Assembly (NCBI RefSeq): GCF_008691045.1
Contig: NZ_VMSO01000003.1
Location: 1 to 64,000, forward strand
From: Mediterraneibacter catenae
GTDB lineage: Bacteria; Bacillota; Clostridia; Lachnospirales; Lachnospiraceae
Length of the DNA stretch: 64,000 nucleotides
Direction: 5' to 3'
Shown: piece by piece, positions 40,540 to 45,749 of the stretch
Position numbering within the stretch: position 1 is the first letter of the stretch
Layout of the letters: each line of letters begins with the position of its first letter
The notes under the pieces: generated by a model
What the model was told of the DNA's origin: nothing
The model's input: the letters and a program-made list of their open reading frames with translations, nothing else
Database searches by the model: none
Translations under genes and position numbers: made by a program

Positions 40540-41217
40540 TTATCTGCCAAATCTTTCCCCGGCCTTCTCCCAGTTTACTACCCGGAACCAGTCGTCGATA
40601 TATACAGCACGCAGGTTATAGTGCTTCAGATAATACGCGTGTTCCCAGACATCGATGTTCAGGAGGAGTGTGCGTGAATGCAGCATCGGCGTGTTCTGGT
40701 TGGATGAGGTTACGATTTTAAGCCTGCCGCTGTCGGAGACGAGCCATGCATAGCCGGAACCGAAGACCGACAGAGCGGCCTCTTTGAACTGGGTTCTGAA
40801 ATTTTCGGGACTTCCGAACTGGCGTGCCATCTCGCGGAAGAGCCTGGCTGAAGGGTCGGATCTTACTTTTGGTTCGCAGTCGTCAGTTATCCGGCGGGAA
40901 TCGTTTGATTGAAAGAAATTTTCACGCCGGTGAGGTCTCATACTGTCAAAATAAAAGCGATGGTTGTATACTCCGCCTGCATTGTTGCGAAGCGGCGCCT
41001 GCAGATGGCAGGGAAGCCTGCACCATGAGGCGAGCAGTTCTTCCAGAGAGTATTTCTGCAGTGCAGGATTTTCTTCGAGAAAATGGTTAAGATTGTCGAT
41101 GTATGTCTGAAGATGCCGGTCGTGGTGAAGGTGCATTGTCTTCTCATCAATATAAGGCTCGAGAGCGTTGTAAGCATATGGAAGAGGCGTGTTGATAAAC
41201 GGGTAATAATTGTTCAT
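40540..41217 (-). CDS. superoxide dismutase, Mn/Fe family, divergent
   Basis: This 225-residue protein has the metal ligands His in LHHDRHLQTY, His in NNAGGVYNHRFYF and Asp/His in IDVWEHAYYLKHYN. The GG before the second His and the Gln in SNQNTP suggest the manganese type; this is an inference from family rules. Compared with E. coli SodA there is an insertion of roughly 20 residues rich in Arg and Asp (RRENFFQSNDSRRITDDCEP) after the second ligand, and the usual second His of the HH pair is Leu. The start at 41217 (CGGAG upstream) gives the normal N-terminus PLPYAYNALEPYID; the longer upstream reading is discarded. Confidence 0.85.
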   Translation of the reverse strand: MNNYYPFINTPLPYAYNALEPYIDEKTMHLHHDRHLQTYIDNLNHFLEENPALQKYSLEELLASWCRLPCHLQAPLRNNAGGVYNHRFYFDSMRPHRRENFFQSNDSRRITDDCEPKVRSDPSARLFREMARQFGSPENFRTQFKEAALSVFGSGYAWLVSDSGRLKIVTSSNQNTPMLHSRTLLLNIDVWEHAYYLKHYNLRAVYIDDWFRVVNWEKAGERFGR

Positions 41218-41381
41218 GCTGAACTCCGAATACTCTTTCTGATACTTTATGAAAGAAATCCATACATGTTTCATAGTGTGCCAAAGAAATTTGCACAGAT
41301 TCCAAACAGATTTGCTGGCAATCCAAGAGTCTTTCTGATATTCTGTGTAAGACAAAAAGACAGAAGAGAGGAGCGGGGAGT

Positions 41382-41867
41382 ATGCTGGGAGAGAAGCTTG
41401 TAACACTCAGGAAGAAGTACGGTTACAGTCAGCAGGAAATCGCGGATATGCTGTCTGTTACGAGACAGACTATATCAAACTGGGAGTGTGGTCAGGGGGC
41501 GCCGTCTCTGGACAAAGCATCTGAACTTGCCAGGATCTATAAAGTGAGCCTGGATGATCTGGTGAAAAATGATGTGGAAATCACAGTGGGAGAAAAGAAA
41601 GAAAAAGATTTACATGTCCTGAAAAAACTTATCGGGAAAAGATGCTGCCTGGACTGCAGGGACTGGGATCTGATGCTGGTTGATGAAGCTGCAAGTGATC
41701 TTTCGGGCGCTTTGGAAGTGCGGATTCTCGATGTAAATGAGGAATGGATCAAGATCGAGTATGAGCGAAGGAAAGAGGGAACTATTTTCCAAAAAGAGAC
41801 AGTGGTAAAGTTGGTTGATCTCTCTCTGATCACCGGACTGAGGACGGAGGTGACGGCAGTATGGTGA
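41382..41867 (+). CDS. XRE-family helix-turn-helix regulator with an extra C-terminal domain
   Basis: This 161-residue protein has an HTH_3 domain at 1-62: LGEKLVTLRKKYGYSQQEIA and SVTRQTISNWECGQGAPSLD. A linker follows, then a C-terminal beta-rich domain (about 78-155) beginning LIGKRCCLDC and containing ILDVNEEWIKIEYE. The same pattern recurs in the next protein. It overlaps that gene by 7 bases, so both are made together. ATG at 41382 follows GAGAGGAGCGG. Function unknown; possibly a membrane-linked one-component regulator pair. Confidence 0.82.
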   Translation: MLGEKLVTLRKKYGYSQQEIADMLSVTRQTISNWECGQGAPSLDKASELARIYKVSLDDLVKNDVEITVGEKKEKDLHVLKKLIGKRCCLDCRDWDLMLVDEAASDLSGALEVRILDVNEEWIKIEYERRKEGTIFQKETVVKLVDLSLITGLRTEVTAVW

Positions 41868-42264: not shown

Positions 42265-42422
42265 AAAATACAATAGTCCGGCTGTTATCAGAATTTGTTT
42301 CATTATAACTTTGTCGTGTCAATTCTTCAAGGTTGCTTCTGGATTTTCGCAGGTGTATGATTGAAGTAAATGTTCTGATGTGTCGAACAGTTGATTTACA
42401 GTTAAGCGAAAGAGGTATCATT

Positions 42423-45400
42423 ATGTACATAGGAGATTTGCATATTCATTCCAGATATTCCCGGGCGACGAGCAAAGAGTGCACACCTGAGCACCTGGAT
42501 CTGTGGGCGAGGAAGAAAGGAATACATATTGTAGGAACCGGTGATTTCACTCATCCGGCATGGCGGGAAGAGCTGGAGGAGAAGCTGGAGCCGGCGGAGG
42601 ACGGGCTTTATGTACTGAAAGACGAATACCGGATCAAGGATGAGAGTGTTCCGGGAGAAGTTATTCCCCGCTTTGTCATAACAGGTGAGATCAGTTCTAT
42701 CTATAAAAAGAACGGAAAAGTTCGTAAAGTACACAGCCTGATCCTTCTGCCTGGTCTCGAGGATGCGCAGAGGATTTCGGCGAAGCTGGAACAGATCGGA
42801 AATATCCATTCTGATGGCCGGCCGATCCTCGGTCTGGACTGTCATGATCTTCTAGAGATCATTTTGGAGCTCTGTCCGCAGGCAGTCTATGTACCTGCGC
42901 ATATCTGGACGCCGCATTTTTCTCTGTTCGGGGCATTCTCTGGATTTGATACAGTGGAAGAGTGTTTTGAGGATTTGACACCGTACATTCATGCCATGGA
43001 GACGGGGCTCTCATCTGACCCGCCGATGAACTGGCGTGTCTCGGCACTGGACCGGTATCAGCTGATCTCTAATTCAGACGCCCACTCTCCGGCTAAACTT
43101 GGCAGAGAGGCTAATCTGTTTGATATTCCACTGTCCTATGAGGGGCTTTCCCGTGCTATTCAGACGGGAGAGGGATTAAGCGGCACGATCGAGTTCTTTC
43201 CGGAGGAAGGAAAATATCACATGGACGGGCACCGTAAATGCAATCTCTGTCTGACGCCTTCTGACACACTGAAATATAACGGTATCTGCCCGGTGTGCGG
43301 CAGGAAGATCACAATCGGAGTGTCCCATCGTGTAGAGGAGCTTTCAGACCGGGCAGAAGGATATATCAGGGAAAACGCAAAGCCGTTTGAGAGCCTGGTT
43401 CCGCTGCCGGAAGTCATCGGGGCTTCTGCAGGACATTCGGCGGCCAGTGTGAAGGTGCAGAGAGAATATCAGAAAATGCTCTTGGAGCTGGGATCGGAAT
43501 TTGAGATCCTGAGGAATCTGCCGCTGGAATATATCCGCAGGGTGTCCGGCACCCGCGTAGCGGAGGGAATTGAGCGCCTGCGCCGCGGGCAGGTAGAGCG
43601 GCTCCCGGGCTTTGACGGGGAGTATGGTGTGATCAAATTATTCAGCTCAGAAGAGCTGAATAATACAGAGGGCCAAATGAGTTTCTTCGAGCTTCTCAGA
43701 ACGCAGGAAAGCAAAAAAGAAAAGGCAGAGAAAGCAGGCAAAGAGACAAGGAAAGCGGAAAAGAAGCATGTGGAATCAGCGGCGGAGCAGAAAGAAGATC
43801 AGAAGAAACGACAGGAGAAACAGCAAGATCAACACCGGAATAAGGCAACTGCTCTGAACCCGGAGCAGGAGTATGCCGTTCGCTGTACTTCGCCTCATAT
43901 TGCGGTAAAAGCAGGCCCGGGAACCGGAAAGACGAAGACGCTTGTATCCCGTCTTCGTTATCTTCTGGAATACCGTAAAGTGCGGCCCGCAGAAATTACA
44001 GCGGTCACATTTACCAATCAGGCGGCTGCCGAGATGCGAACCAGAATTGAGCGGGAGACCGGAAAAAAACAGGCGGGCCGTACGATGCAGATCGGCACGT
44101 TCCACAGCATATGTCTGAACTTCCTGAAAGAGCAGGGAGAAGAATTCACCCTGATGGGCGAGGCACAGCAGCGGCTTATGGCAGAAGAGGTCATCTTGCA
44201 GGAGGGGCTGAATGTCAGACCAGCTAAATTCCTGGAGCAGGTATCACGCAGAAAATCCGGTATGGACAGAGCGCTTGCAGGCGATGCTTTCGGCGCGGAT
44301 ATTTCTGGAGACCCGGTATGGCAGCAGGCGTACCAGCTTTATGAAGAACGGAAGCAGGAACTGCATCTGCTGGACTTCGATGATCTTCTGGTGCGTGTGA
44401 CGGAGCGGATAGAGAACGGACAGGTAAATGACGGATGGGAGAAGAAGTTCCGGTATCTTCTTGTCGATGAATTCCAGGATATTAATCCTGTGCAGCTTAT
44501 GCTGGTGAAGCTGTGGAGTCAGGCGGGAAGAGAGCTGTTTGTGATCGGCGATCCGGATCAGTCAATCTACGGCTTCCGCGGAGCGGACAGCGCCTGTTTC
44601 GAGCGCCTCGGAAGAGAATACGAAGATCTTGAGGTCGTAAACCTGAAAGAAAATTATCGTTCCGCGCCTCAGATCCTGAAGGCAGCATCGGCAGTCATCA
44701 GAGAGGCAGAATCAGTGGAAAAGGAAGAAAGAGAAATGCTTCATCCAAACTGTCCTGACAGCGTGCCTGTCAGGATCGTCCGTGCCGGAAGCCCCATGGG
44801 CGAGGCAATATTTATCGCAAAGGAGATCAACCGGATGGCGGGCGGTATGGGGATGATCGAGGCGCATCAGACTGCATGGGAACATCCGGATAAGAAAGCA
44901 CGCAGTTTTGATGAAATGGCGGTCCTCTGTCGTACACACCATCAGGCCGAACTGGTGGAAAAATGTCTTCGCACAGAGAGCATCCCGTACGTGATCGCCG
45001 GCAGGGAGGATTATCTGAATGAAGAATCTGTACAGAACAGTATCTGTTTCTTTCGCCTCATAGAGCAGACAGAGAAATCAGAGCCTCTGCCGGATTCGCC
45101 GCATGAAGAATCAGAAAACACACAGCAGCGCGAAGTTTCGGATATGACCGGCGATATTTCCGGGATGGAGATATGTGCCAGATATTTCTGGAAACTGGAG
45201 TGGAGCGATATGGCTGAGGAAGTGATCAGAAATACTCTGATCAGGTACCGCCCGCTCTATAAAAAGAAAAAACCTCAGAAATTCCTTGAACAGTGGATGG
45301 AGGAGATGGAGCTGACAGGTGATCCTGCGATGCAGAAACTTCTGCAGGCGTCAGTCTTCTACAAGACAATGACGGAATTTCTGTATGCACTTGAGCTGGG

Positions 45401-45749
45401 AGTGGAGAGTGACCTGAAACGATGCGGCAGTAAGAAATACGCTTCCGACGCGGTTACTGTCATGACTCTGCACGGCTCGAAAGGACTTGAATTCCCCGTG
45501 GCATTTATCTACGGAGTGGAGAAAGGTTCGATCCCGCTGGAGAATGAGAAACATCCGTCAGATAAAGAGGAAGAGCGCCGTTTGTTCTATGTAGGGATGA
45601 CAAGAGCGGAGGAAGAGCTGATCCTGACAACTTCCGGGGAGGAGTCTGAATTTACCGGTGTCATCCCCGAGGATGTATCTGTTCGCGAAAATGAAGAGAA
45701 AAAGAAGAAAGAACAGGAATGGCAGCAGATGAGCTTGTTCGACATGTGA
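42423..45749 (+). CDS. EndoQ-like PHP endonuclease fused to a UvrD/Rep-type helicase
   Basis: This 1108-residue protein has an N-terminal PHP/EndoQ domain (1-about 420): DLHIHSRYSRATSKECTPEH, GTGDFTHPAW, YVPAHIWTPHFSLFG, SNSDAHSP, and a four-Cys zinc site (C273, C276, C289, C292). A charged linker (about 425-475) follows, then a superfamily 1A helicase: Walker A GPGTGKT 498-504, VDEFQD at 681-686, GDPDQSIYGFRGAD, MTLHGSKGLEF and LFYVGMTRAEEE. EndoQ nicks DNA 5' of deaminated bases. The fusion suggests nick-and-unwind repair in one protein. QMSFF at 418-422 and QMSLFDM at the C-terminus resemble beta-clamp-binding motifs. The start at 42423 (AAAGAGGT upstream) is preferred over 42333. Confidence 0.88.
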   Translation: MYIGDLHIHSRYSRATSKECTPEHLDLWARKKGIHIVGTGDFTHPAWREELEEKLEPAEDGLYVLKDEYRIKDESVPGEVIPRFVITGEISSIYKKNGKVRKVHSLILLPGLEDAQRISAKLEQIGNIHSDGRPILGLDCHDLLEIILELCPQAVYVPAHIWTPHFSLFGAFSGFDTVEECFEDLTPYIHAMETGLSSDPPMNWRVSALDRYQLISNSDAHSPAKLGREANLFDIPLSYEGLSRAIQTGEGLSGTIEFFPEEGKYHMDGHRKCNLCLTPSDTLKYNGICPVCGRKITIGVSHRVEELSDRAEGYIRENAKPFESLVPLPEVIGASAGHSAASVKVQREYQKMLLELGSEFEILRNLPLEYIRRVSGTRVAEGIERLRRGQVERLPGFDGEYGVIKLFSSEELNNTEGQMSFFELLRTQESKKEKAEKAGKETRKAEKKHVESAAEQKEDQKKRQEKQQDQHRNKATALNPEQEYAVRCTSPHIAVKAGPGTGKTKTLVSRLRYLLEYRKVRPAEITAVTFTNQAAAEMRTRIERETGKKQAGRTMQIGTFHSICLNFLKEQGEEFTLMGEAQQRLMAEEVILQEGLNVRPAKFLEQVSRRKSGMDRALAGDAFGADISGDPVWQQAYQLYEERKQELHLLDFDDLLVRVTERIENGQVNDGWEKKFRYLLVDEFQDINPVQLMLVKLWSQAGRELFVIGDPDQSIYGFRGADSACFERLGREYEDLEVVNLKENYRSAPQILKAASAVIREAESVEKEEREMLHPNCPDSVPVRIVRAGSPMGEAIFIAKEINRMAGGMGMIEAHQTAWEHPDKKARSFDEMAVLCRTHHQAELVEKCLRTESIPYVIAGREDYLNEESVQNSICFFRLIEQTEKSEPLPDSPHEESENTQQREVSDMTGDISGMEICARYFWKLEWSDMAEEVIRNTLIRYRPLYKKKKPQKFLEQWMEEMELTGDPAMQKLLQASVFYKTMTEFLYALELGVESDLKRCGSKKYASDAVTVMTLHGSKGLEFPVAFIYGVEKGSIPLENEKHPSDKEEERRLFYVGMTRAEEELILTTSGEESEFTGVIPEDVSVRENEEKKKKEQEWQQMSLFDM

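Follow-up and report, generated by a model that had tools for sequence, protein, structure and literature searches.

Can an enzyme that cuts next to deaminated bases and a helicase that might act at the resulting nick be carried on a single polypeptide, and what would such a protein do? This question is raised by an open reading frame (ORF) of the gut bacterium Mediterraneibacter catenae (assembly GCF_008691045.1), located within positions 1 to 64,000 of contig NZ_VMSO01000003.1, a 64,000-nucleotide stretch hereafter called the window. An original prediction made from the letters of this stretch had placed an EndoQ-like nuclease and a UvrD-type helicase in one frame there, and we confirmed this fusion: the coding sequence (42423..45749, forward strand, as are all features of the gene below) is an uninterrupted ORF of 1108 codons in which both folds were matched, giving a protein of 1108 amino acids. 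Its start aligns with those of its relatives and is preceded, 7 bases ahead of the ATG, by what reads as a probable ribosome-binding site (AAGAGG, 42410..42415). The protein comprises an EndoQ module of the PHP fold (residues 1-406, 42423..43640), a variable linker of about 70 residues (407-476, 43641..43850) and a superfamily 1A (SF1A) helicase of UvrD/PcrA type (477-1085, 43851..45677), and the fusion occurs once in the genome. Its features suggest an undescribed all-in-one starter of DNA repair.

We identified the N-terminal module by profile, structure database, alignment and predicted structure. Residues 4-406 matched residues 5-382 of Pyrococcus furiosus EndoQ (PfuEndoQ) in the PDB (5zb8, E 7.9e-50; 7k30, E 3.9e-49), the NCBIfam profile TIGR00375 was covered from position 3 to 374 of 374 (E 7e-54, 183.7 bits), and Foldseek superposed the module on PfuEndoQ, C-terminal domain included, with template modeling (TM) scores of 0.83-0.86 by target length. 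PHP-fold metal ligands are common to the whole superfamily, which would also fit a helicase fused to some functionally unrelated PHP phosphoesterase, of the histidinol-phosphatase or polymerase type, but the EndoQ match runs over the full length, including the zinc-ribbon region and the C-terminal helical part, and all three PDB sequence matches of the module at E up to 1 are EndoQ, making such an origin barely credible. The phosphatase reading was ruled out by the TIGR00375, PDB and Foldseek matches; in the profile search, residues 1-406 matched EndoQ rather than a PHP phosphatase clade, as had been predicted.

The catalytic residues are likewise intact. When PfuEndoQ was aligned with EndoQ rows of three kinds (103 fused, 32 stand-alone, 53 canonical), Pfu H8, H10, E76, H84, H139, E167, D193 and H195 correspond to window H7, H9, E89, H104, H160, E193, D219 and H221, and these eight PHP metal ligands show zero substitutions in the 103 fused rows (one of which lacks the N-terminus). 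The base-pocket gate, Pfu H139, G169 and S171, corresponds to window H160, G195 and S197 and is kept in 103/103 fused, 32/32 stand-alone and 53/53 canonical rows. According to the accessible part of a review (PMC8307549), E76, H84 and H139 are essential in Pfu EndoQ, and H139, G169 and S171 obstruct normal T and A. A loss of EndoQ metal ligands, named in the original prediction as speaking against it, was thus found at none of the eight positions, and G169 and S171 are kept as well. The gate also bears on whether the module is instead a general AP endonuclease linked to strand displacement, acting mainly at abasic (AP) sites or oxidized pyrimidines and not at deaminated bases: both substrate types, the latter including 5-hydroxyuracil, are also cleaved by PfuEndoQ (PMC8307549, same partial source), but the invariance of the normal-base-excluding H139, G169 and S171 in the 103 fused and 32 stand-alone rows makes this role improbable. 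At the putative zinc-ribbon site (residues 270-292, 43230..43298), which we placed by alignments, the four predicted cysteines are present (C273, C276, C289 and C292) but shifted: Pfu C252, C268 and C271 correspond to C273, C289 and C292, the place of Pfu's first zinc ligand, C249, is taken by His270, which all 103 fused rows share, and C276 is an extra cysteine.

Is this, then, simply the known bacterial EndoQ with a helicase attached? The module is 35.8% identical to Pfu (133/372) and has a median identity of 28.8% to 53 canonical EndoQs of the phylum, and the fused and canonical kinds are each about 34-35% identical to Pfu; this roughly 29% between kinds equally distant from Pfu argues that the fused kind is its own lineage. 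Its TIGR00375 score of 183.7 bits lies below the NCBI curated cut-off of 326.6, which was reached by 0/392 genomes of the order and 2/398 drawn from the phylum, and because of these scores we claim a distinct EndoQ lineage rather than the equivalog. Judged by its sequence, the module is not of the canonical kind and forms a separate lineage. Since it scores below the cut-off, annotation pipelines likely hide the nuclease part of the fusion.

The C-terminal module is a complete SF1A helicase, as predicted. Pfam matches over residues 478-1071 to UvrD-helicase (218.8 bits) and UvrD_C (134.7 bits) were accompanied by PDB sequence matches to PcrA, UvrD and Rep, and in an alignment of 47 fused proteins (the window plus 46 of the 69 fused named loci listed below) the motif I-VI residues G500, K503, D682, E683, Q713, R746, H1017, E1023 and R1061 were invariant in 47/47. 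The Walker A motif reads AGPGTGKT in the translation and in this alignment (residues 497-504, 43911..43934). The PcrA equivalog test gave 322 bits vs. a cut-off of 911, which was thus not reached, and the genome holds at least three further UvrD-like helicases and a separate PcrA candidate (named by eye). Between the blocks aligned with PcrA, query positions 412-516 (104 residues) stand against PcrA 404-534 (130 residues), and because this stretch is shorter, the 2B region, placed at residues about 880-995 by alignment and model of the helicase module, is probably reduced. Residues 802-814 (44826-44864) form a conserved clade-specific insert with the consensus INRMxGGxDMLDA, which falls mostly in a gap of the PcrA alignment and is perhaps a contact to the EndoQ module.

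An AlphaFold2 model built from the 47 fused sequences (mean predicted local distance difference test, pLDDT, 82; predicted TM score, pTM, 0.58) recovered both folds as two mostly confident modules joined by a low-confidence linker. Searched with Foldseek, the predicted structure matched UvrD (2is6, E 1.9e-40) and PfuEndoQ (5zb8, E 4.6e-31). Confidence was low at residues 416-449, where the linker is probably disordered, and over most of 1094-1108.

How might such a protein be brought to its substrate? Two short peptides that the original prediction had overlooked, which we identified by alignment and motif counts, resemble sliding-clamp-binding motifs: QMSFF in the linker (residues 418-422, 43674..43688) and QMSLF at the C-terminus (residues 1102-1106, 45726..45740). 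Gly417-Gln418 is invariant in 47/47 aligned fusions, with the next four positions mostly [MLTI]-S-[LF]-F, and across the 98 of 106 fused proteins that could be scored the GQ lies exactly 14 residues behind the EndoQ core in 98/98; the 8 others lack the exact core pattern, and in each of them the corresponding position shows GQ with a similar peptide. The pattern Qxx[LFMI][FL] occurred at the internal site in 88/98 (shuffled mean 9.0, maximum 19), and leaving out three identical fused rows gave 95/95 for GQ and 85/95 for the motif. Behind the last helicase motif, a tail motif, mostly QMSLF, QLSLF or QLSFF, was present in 61/65 (shuffled mean 6.8, maximum 15 of 65), and Q418 and Q1102 are each invariant in 47/47. 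In the model, confidence is low around both motifs, in stretches that are probably disordered.

No clamp-like motif was seen in the last 20 residues of canonical EndoQ (0/53 rows examined) or in the last 60 residues of three other UvrD-type helicases of the same genome (L002, L003 and L004; of two further loci, L005 holds the gene already counted as L003, and L006 is truncated where its locus ends). Among stand-alone rows, 34 of 35 could be scored (L099 could not), and a motif behind the core was found only in L194, a split fusion. In the accessible text of PMC12309361, the most frequent clamp-binding consensus is QL[S/D]LF, and PolC carries QLSLF at its C-terminus, a motif that binds Bacillus subtilis DnaN only at micromolar strength. 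In archaea, PCNA binds and stimulates EndoQ via a C-terminal PCNA-interacting peptide (PIP) box, and bacterial EndoQ homologues with beta-clamp consensus sequences in the C-terminal region are also described (PMC4858679, partial text); the P. abyssi PHP/Zn-ribbon protein of COG1379, reported as a PCNA partner in the part of PMC3820547 at hand, is probably P. abyssi EndoQ. The archaeal PIP box likewise lies behind the core, but at a different distance than the fusion's internal motif. On the strength of their conservation and resemblance, the two motifs are probable sliding-clamp docking sites.

We next asked how widely the fusion occurs. The scan of named genomes covered the best 80 of at least 581 confirmed candidates, and 69 of these 80 loci were fused and 11, L194 among them, were not; because of this recurrence, the fusion is neither chance nor misassembly, and an assembly chimera was ruled out. 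Fused loci among those listed include Blautia schinkii, Eisenbergiella, Enterocloster, Neglectibacter, Anaerotruncus, Pseudoflavonifractor, Propionispora and Dethiobacter, i.e., the EndoQ-helicase lineage is deep and spread over several families of Clostridia. Matches to TIGR00375 at E ≤ 0.001 were present in 30/392 genomes of the order, 73/391 of the class (many of them weak, at about 20 bits) and 207/398 of the phylum, with 16 of the 30 matches in the order lying in open frames of fused size. Within the genus, 32/37 genomes, the window's own included, carry this EndoQ, or 33/61 when one other genus is added. The 33 copies divide into 22 fused (the window's own, 20 genus loci and L068) and 11 stand-alone ones.

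Several individual loci depart from the simple picture. One copy counted among the fused breaks off early within the helicase (L043:883-2802, 639 amino acids), and one counted among the stand-alone has its EndoQ in two pieces (L062:1047-2342). At L194:5001-8174, EndoQ (464 amino acids) and helicase (583 amino acids) are neighboring ORFs in one frame with a stop in the linker, a split that could be either real or a sequencing error. A fused EndoQ-UvrD on a metagenome-assembled contig labeled Treponema (L206:4905-8210) was placed among clostridial tree rows, reflecting either transfer or mis-binning. Genome G942 has both a canonical-size EndoQ frame (C52:49120-49971) and a long one of fused size, judged by length (C55:23490-24698), hinting at separate tasks.

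Did the fusion arise once or repeatedly? A quick maximum-likelihood tree of 146 EndoQ domains (103 fused, 32 stand-alone with L194 among them, and 11 canonical; six identical-domain rows, rows with fewer than 330 aligned residues and 42 of the 53 canonical rows were left out) separated the canonical rows with full support, with 58 of its 143 inner branches weakly supported. The fused-or-alone label changes 14 times on this tree, at least 9 of these changes being forced by starred branches, and again 14 times in a thinned 76-row set without L194. Such counts do not distinguish gains from losses. When canonical EndoQ is taken as the root, two fused loci branch off first (L094 and L093, with one branching at support 77), then two that stand alone (L090, on a long branch, and L099), and fused rows follow; a single family of the order supplies all four. 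Several stand-alone proteins still carry at their end a remnant of the fused proteins' post-core segment, such as LFSAEEL in L064. Because of this rooting and these remnants, the sequences suggest one old fusion followed by repeated helicase loss, with EndoQ surviving. A single helicase loss, in which stand-alone rows form one clade, was rejected by the approximately unbiased test (p = 7e-65, for a group defined by the trait itself on the quick tree of the thinned 76-row set), and a recent fusion within one genus was ruled out by the fused rows coming first in the rooted tree.

Selection on the modules was gauged by Nei-Gojobori ratios of nonsynonymous to synonymous rates (dN/dS) for 19 same-genus fused genes against the window, unscorable comparisons being saturated. 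Median dN/dS was 0.051 for EndoQ (18 scorable), 0.113 for the helicase (13) and 0.246 for the linker (4): both catalytic modules are under purifying selection, and the linker drifts. These data also speak to a reading that gives the leading role to the helicase, as a PcrA/Rep-like accessory motor at the replication fork, with EndoQ as a rider that removes deaminated bases from single-stranded template. The tail motif does sit on the helicase, and P. furiosus EndoQ cuts uracil and hypoxanthine in single-stranded DNA (PMC11354406, partial text). However, where the fusion is missing it is EndoQ that remains: tblastn at 35 stand-alone loci, some with short flanks, found helicase sequence nearby only at the split L194, and the best helicase matches in nine of eleven stand-alone kin genomes searched were paralogues at 32-35% identity. 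EndoQ is also the more constrained module (EndoQ-less genomes with the helicase were not looked for), and we consider a helicase-centered role unlikely.

What, then, would the fusion do? We favor, as reasonably probable, a clamp-docked nick-and-peel enzyme that would start an alternative excision repair of deaminated bases from a single polypeptide. The EndoQ module would flip a deaminated base into its pocket, be it hypoxanthine, uracil, or perhaps xanthine or an AP site, and cut 5' of it, leaving a 3'-OH; the fused helicase would load at this nick and, moving 3'-5' on the intact strand, peel off the lesion-bearing 5'-ended strand; a polymerase would refill from the 3'-OH, and a 5' nuclease and ligase would finish, with the two clamp-binding-like peptides docking the protein on the beta sliding clamp, much as archaeal EndoQ docks on PCNA. 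UvrD/PcrA helicases have 3'-5' polarity, and we infer from this that the helicase would displace the lesion strand in the direction of polymerase filling. That EndoQ leaves a 3'-OH 5' of the lesion is reported in the accessible part of its discovery paper (PMC4357722). The architecture, the intact catalytic residues, the conservation, the selection and the motifs are direct observations, and the idea in the original prediction that the fusion may begin an excision repair route is supported by the EndoQ match, the kept ligands and the intact helicase in cis. Lesion specificity, cutting, unwinding, clamp binding and the order of steps are what we infer.

The pathway setting points to a preferred lesion. 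EndoV was found in 0/37 genus genomes (some incomplete) and 1/61 relatives, and uracil-DNA glycosylase (UDG) family enzymes in 57/61, own genome included; since EndoV was not found in the genus and UDG is present, hypoxanthine would be the lesion where EndoQ matters most, unless AlkA-type glycosylases, which were not searched for, serve hypoxanthine instead. This proviso is one of several points that weigh against a nick-and-peel role. With UDG present in most relatives, uracil has another route. Many relatives retain EndoQ while lacking the helicase (about 14 state changes), which makes the helicase dispensable for the core task of EndoQ, and in 5/37 genus genomes nothing matched the EndoQ module. 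The zinc site differs from that of Pfu, 10/98 internal motifs depart from the pattern, and the tail motif is missing in 4/65 proteins (L041, L048 where the contig ends, L057 and L235). The mutual placement of the two modules was not confidently predicted (pTM 0.58), and we found no conserved gene neighborhood among ORFs of at least 100 amino acids within 5 kb of the 80 loci, the largest shared family occurring in 10/80.

The neighborhood scan bears equally on a role in defense, in which the fusion would attack invading DNA containing uracil, hypoxanthine or other non-standard bases, with the helicase widening nicks to gaps and destroying the phage genome. Helicase-nuclease fusions are common in defense, and the repeated absence of the helicase would be compatible with an arms race. 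Bacterial EndoQ may join antiviral defense, and Ugi does not inhibit the B. subtilis enzyme, according to the part of the PMC8307549 review available. Set against this are flanks in which the 80 loci share no gene set and no defense gene was seen by eye (PADLOC was not run), the strong conservation of EndoQ (dN/dS 0.05), clamp-like motifs that point to replication-linked repair, and phage records, none of which matched the EndoQ module; we therefore rate defense as a rather unlikely function. Among plasmids, 3107 records matched, none covering 80% of the query, and the 15 matches listed concern the helicase part only. An nth-like gene (endonuclease III by eye) lies directly behind EndoQ at three loci, with EndoQ fused at L170:8199-8861 and alone at L197:6190-6909 and L200:6272-6895.

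How does a nick-and-peel fusion compare with known systems? It shares with P. furiosus/Thermococcus EndoQ (5zb8, 7k30-7k33) the fold, tested ligands, gate residues, a putative zinc ribbon and, past the core on its C-terminal side, a clamp-docking peptide (predicted, in the fusion), but is 36% identical, has a helicase behind it and His270 in place of the first zinc cysteine, and carries a bacterial clamp-like motif where the archaeal enzyme has a PIP box. Canonical bacterial EndoQ (TIGR00375; the stand-alone Bacillus type of about 390-440 amino acids) is of the same family with the same catalytic residues, but lacks a helicase and mostly ends in GGGGxYG rather than the GFDGEYG of the window kind. 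PcrA, UvrD and Rep (1pjr, 2is6, 1uaa) share the SF1A motor with all motifs at 25-30% identity, the fusion differing by its N-terminal EndoQ, C-terminal clamp-like motif, INRMxGGxDMLDA insert and shorter stretch between aligned blocks. In AddA/RecB, too, a single chain holds helicase and nuclease; there the nuclease is C-terminal, has a restriction-like fold and degrades ends, whereas the fusion's predicted lesion-specific nickase is N-terminal.

We found no description of a fused EndoQ-UvrD in the literature searched, and one is possible in subscription papers, most of which lay outside the search; the accessible parts of PMC4357722, PMC8307549, PMC4858679, PMC3820547 and PMC11354406 do not mention it. 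Among the routes drawn in the accessible part of the discovery paper is "removal by helicase activity" once EndoV has made a second cut (PMC4357722). EndoQ has been pictured as an enzyme chiefly of archaea that has some homologues in bacteria and could feed into more than one downstream route. The fusion puts a helicase into the same chain, in a lineage spread over Clostridia; together with the paired clamp-like motifs this offers a concrete, testable step order for EndoQ-started repair and suggests a way for EndoV-less bacteria to handle hypoxanthine, a lesion that might be expected in places such as the gut, where nitrosative stress occurs often. Our results support a larger finding than first stated, namely an EndoQ lineage that is both deep and widespread and combines a helicase in cis with two probable clamp motifs. 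Much more tentatively, it is conceivable, if doubtful, that the internal and C-terminal motifs fill both pockets of one beta-clamp ring and hold nickase and helicase on a fixed face behind the fork, for strand-directed patch repair of deaminated or misincorporated deoxyinosine/deoxyuridine (dI/dU) that would stand in for the absent EndoV pathway across much of the Clostridia.

Finally, elsewhere in the window, an ORF at 40540-41406 on the reverse strand contains a stretch that by eye resembles Fe/Mn superoxide dismutase, along with an upstream extension and an odd middle part, and a 216-amino-acid relative of it lies upstream of the fusion in L160.

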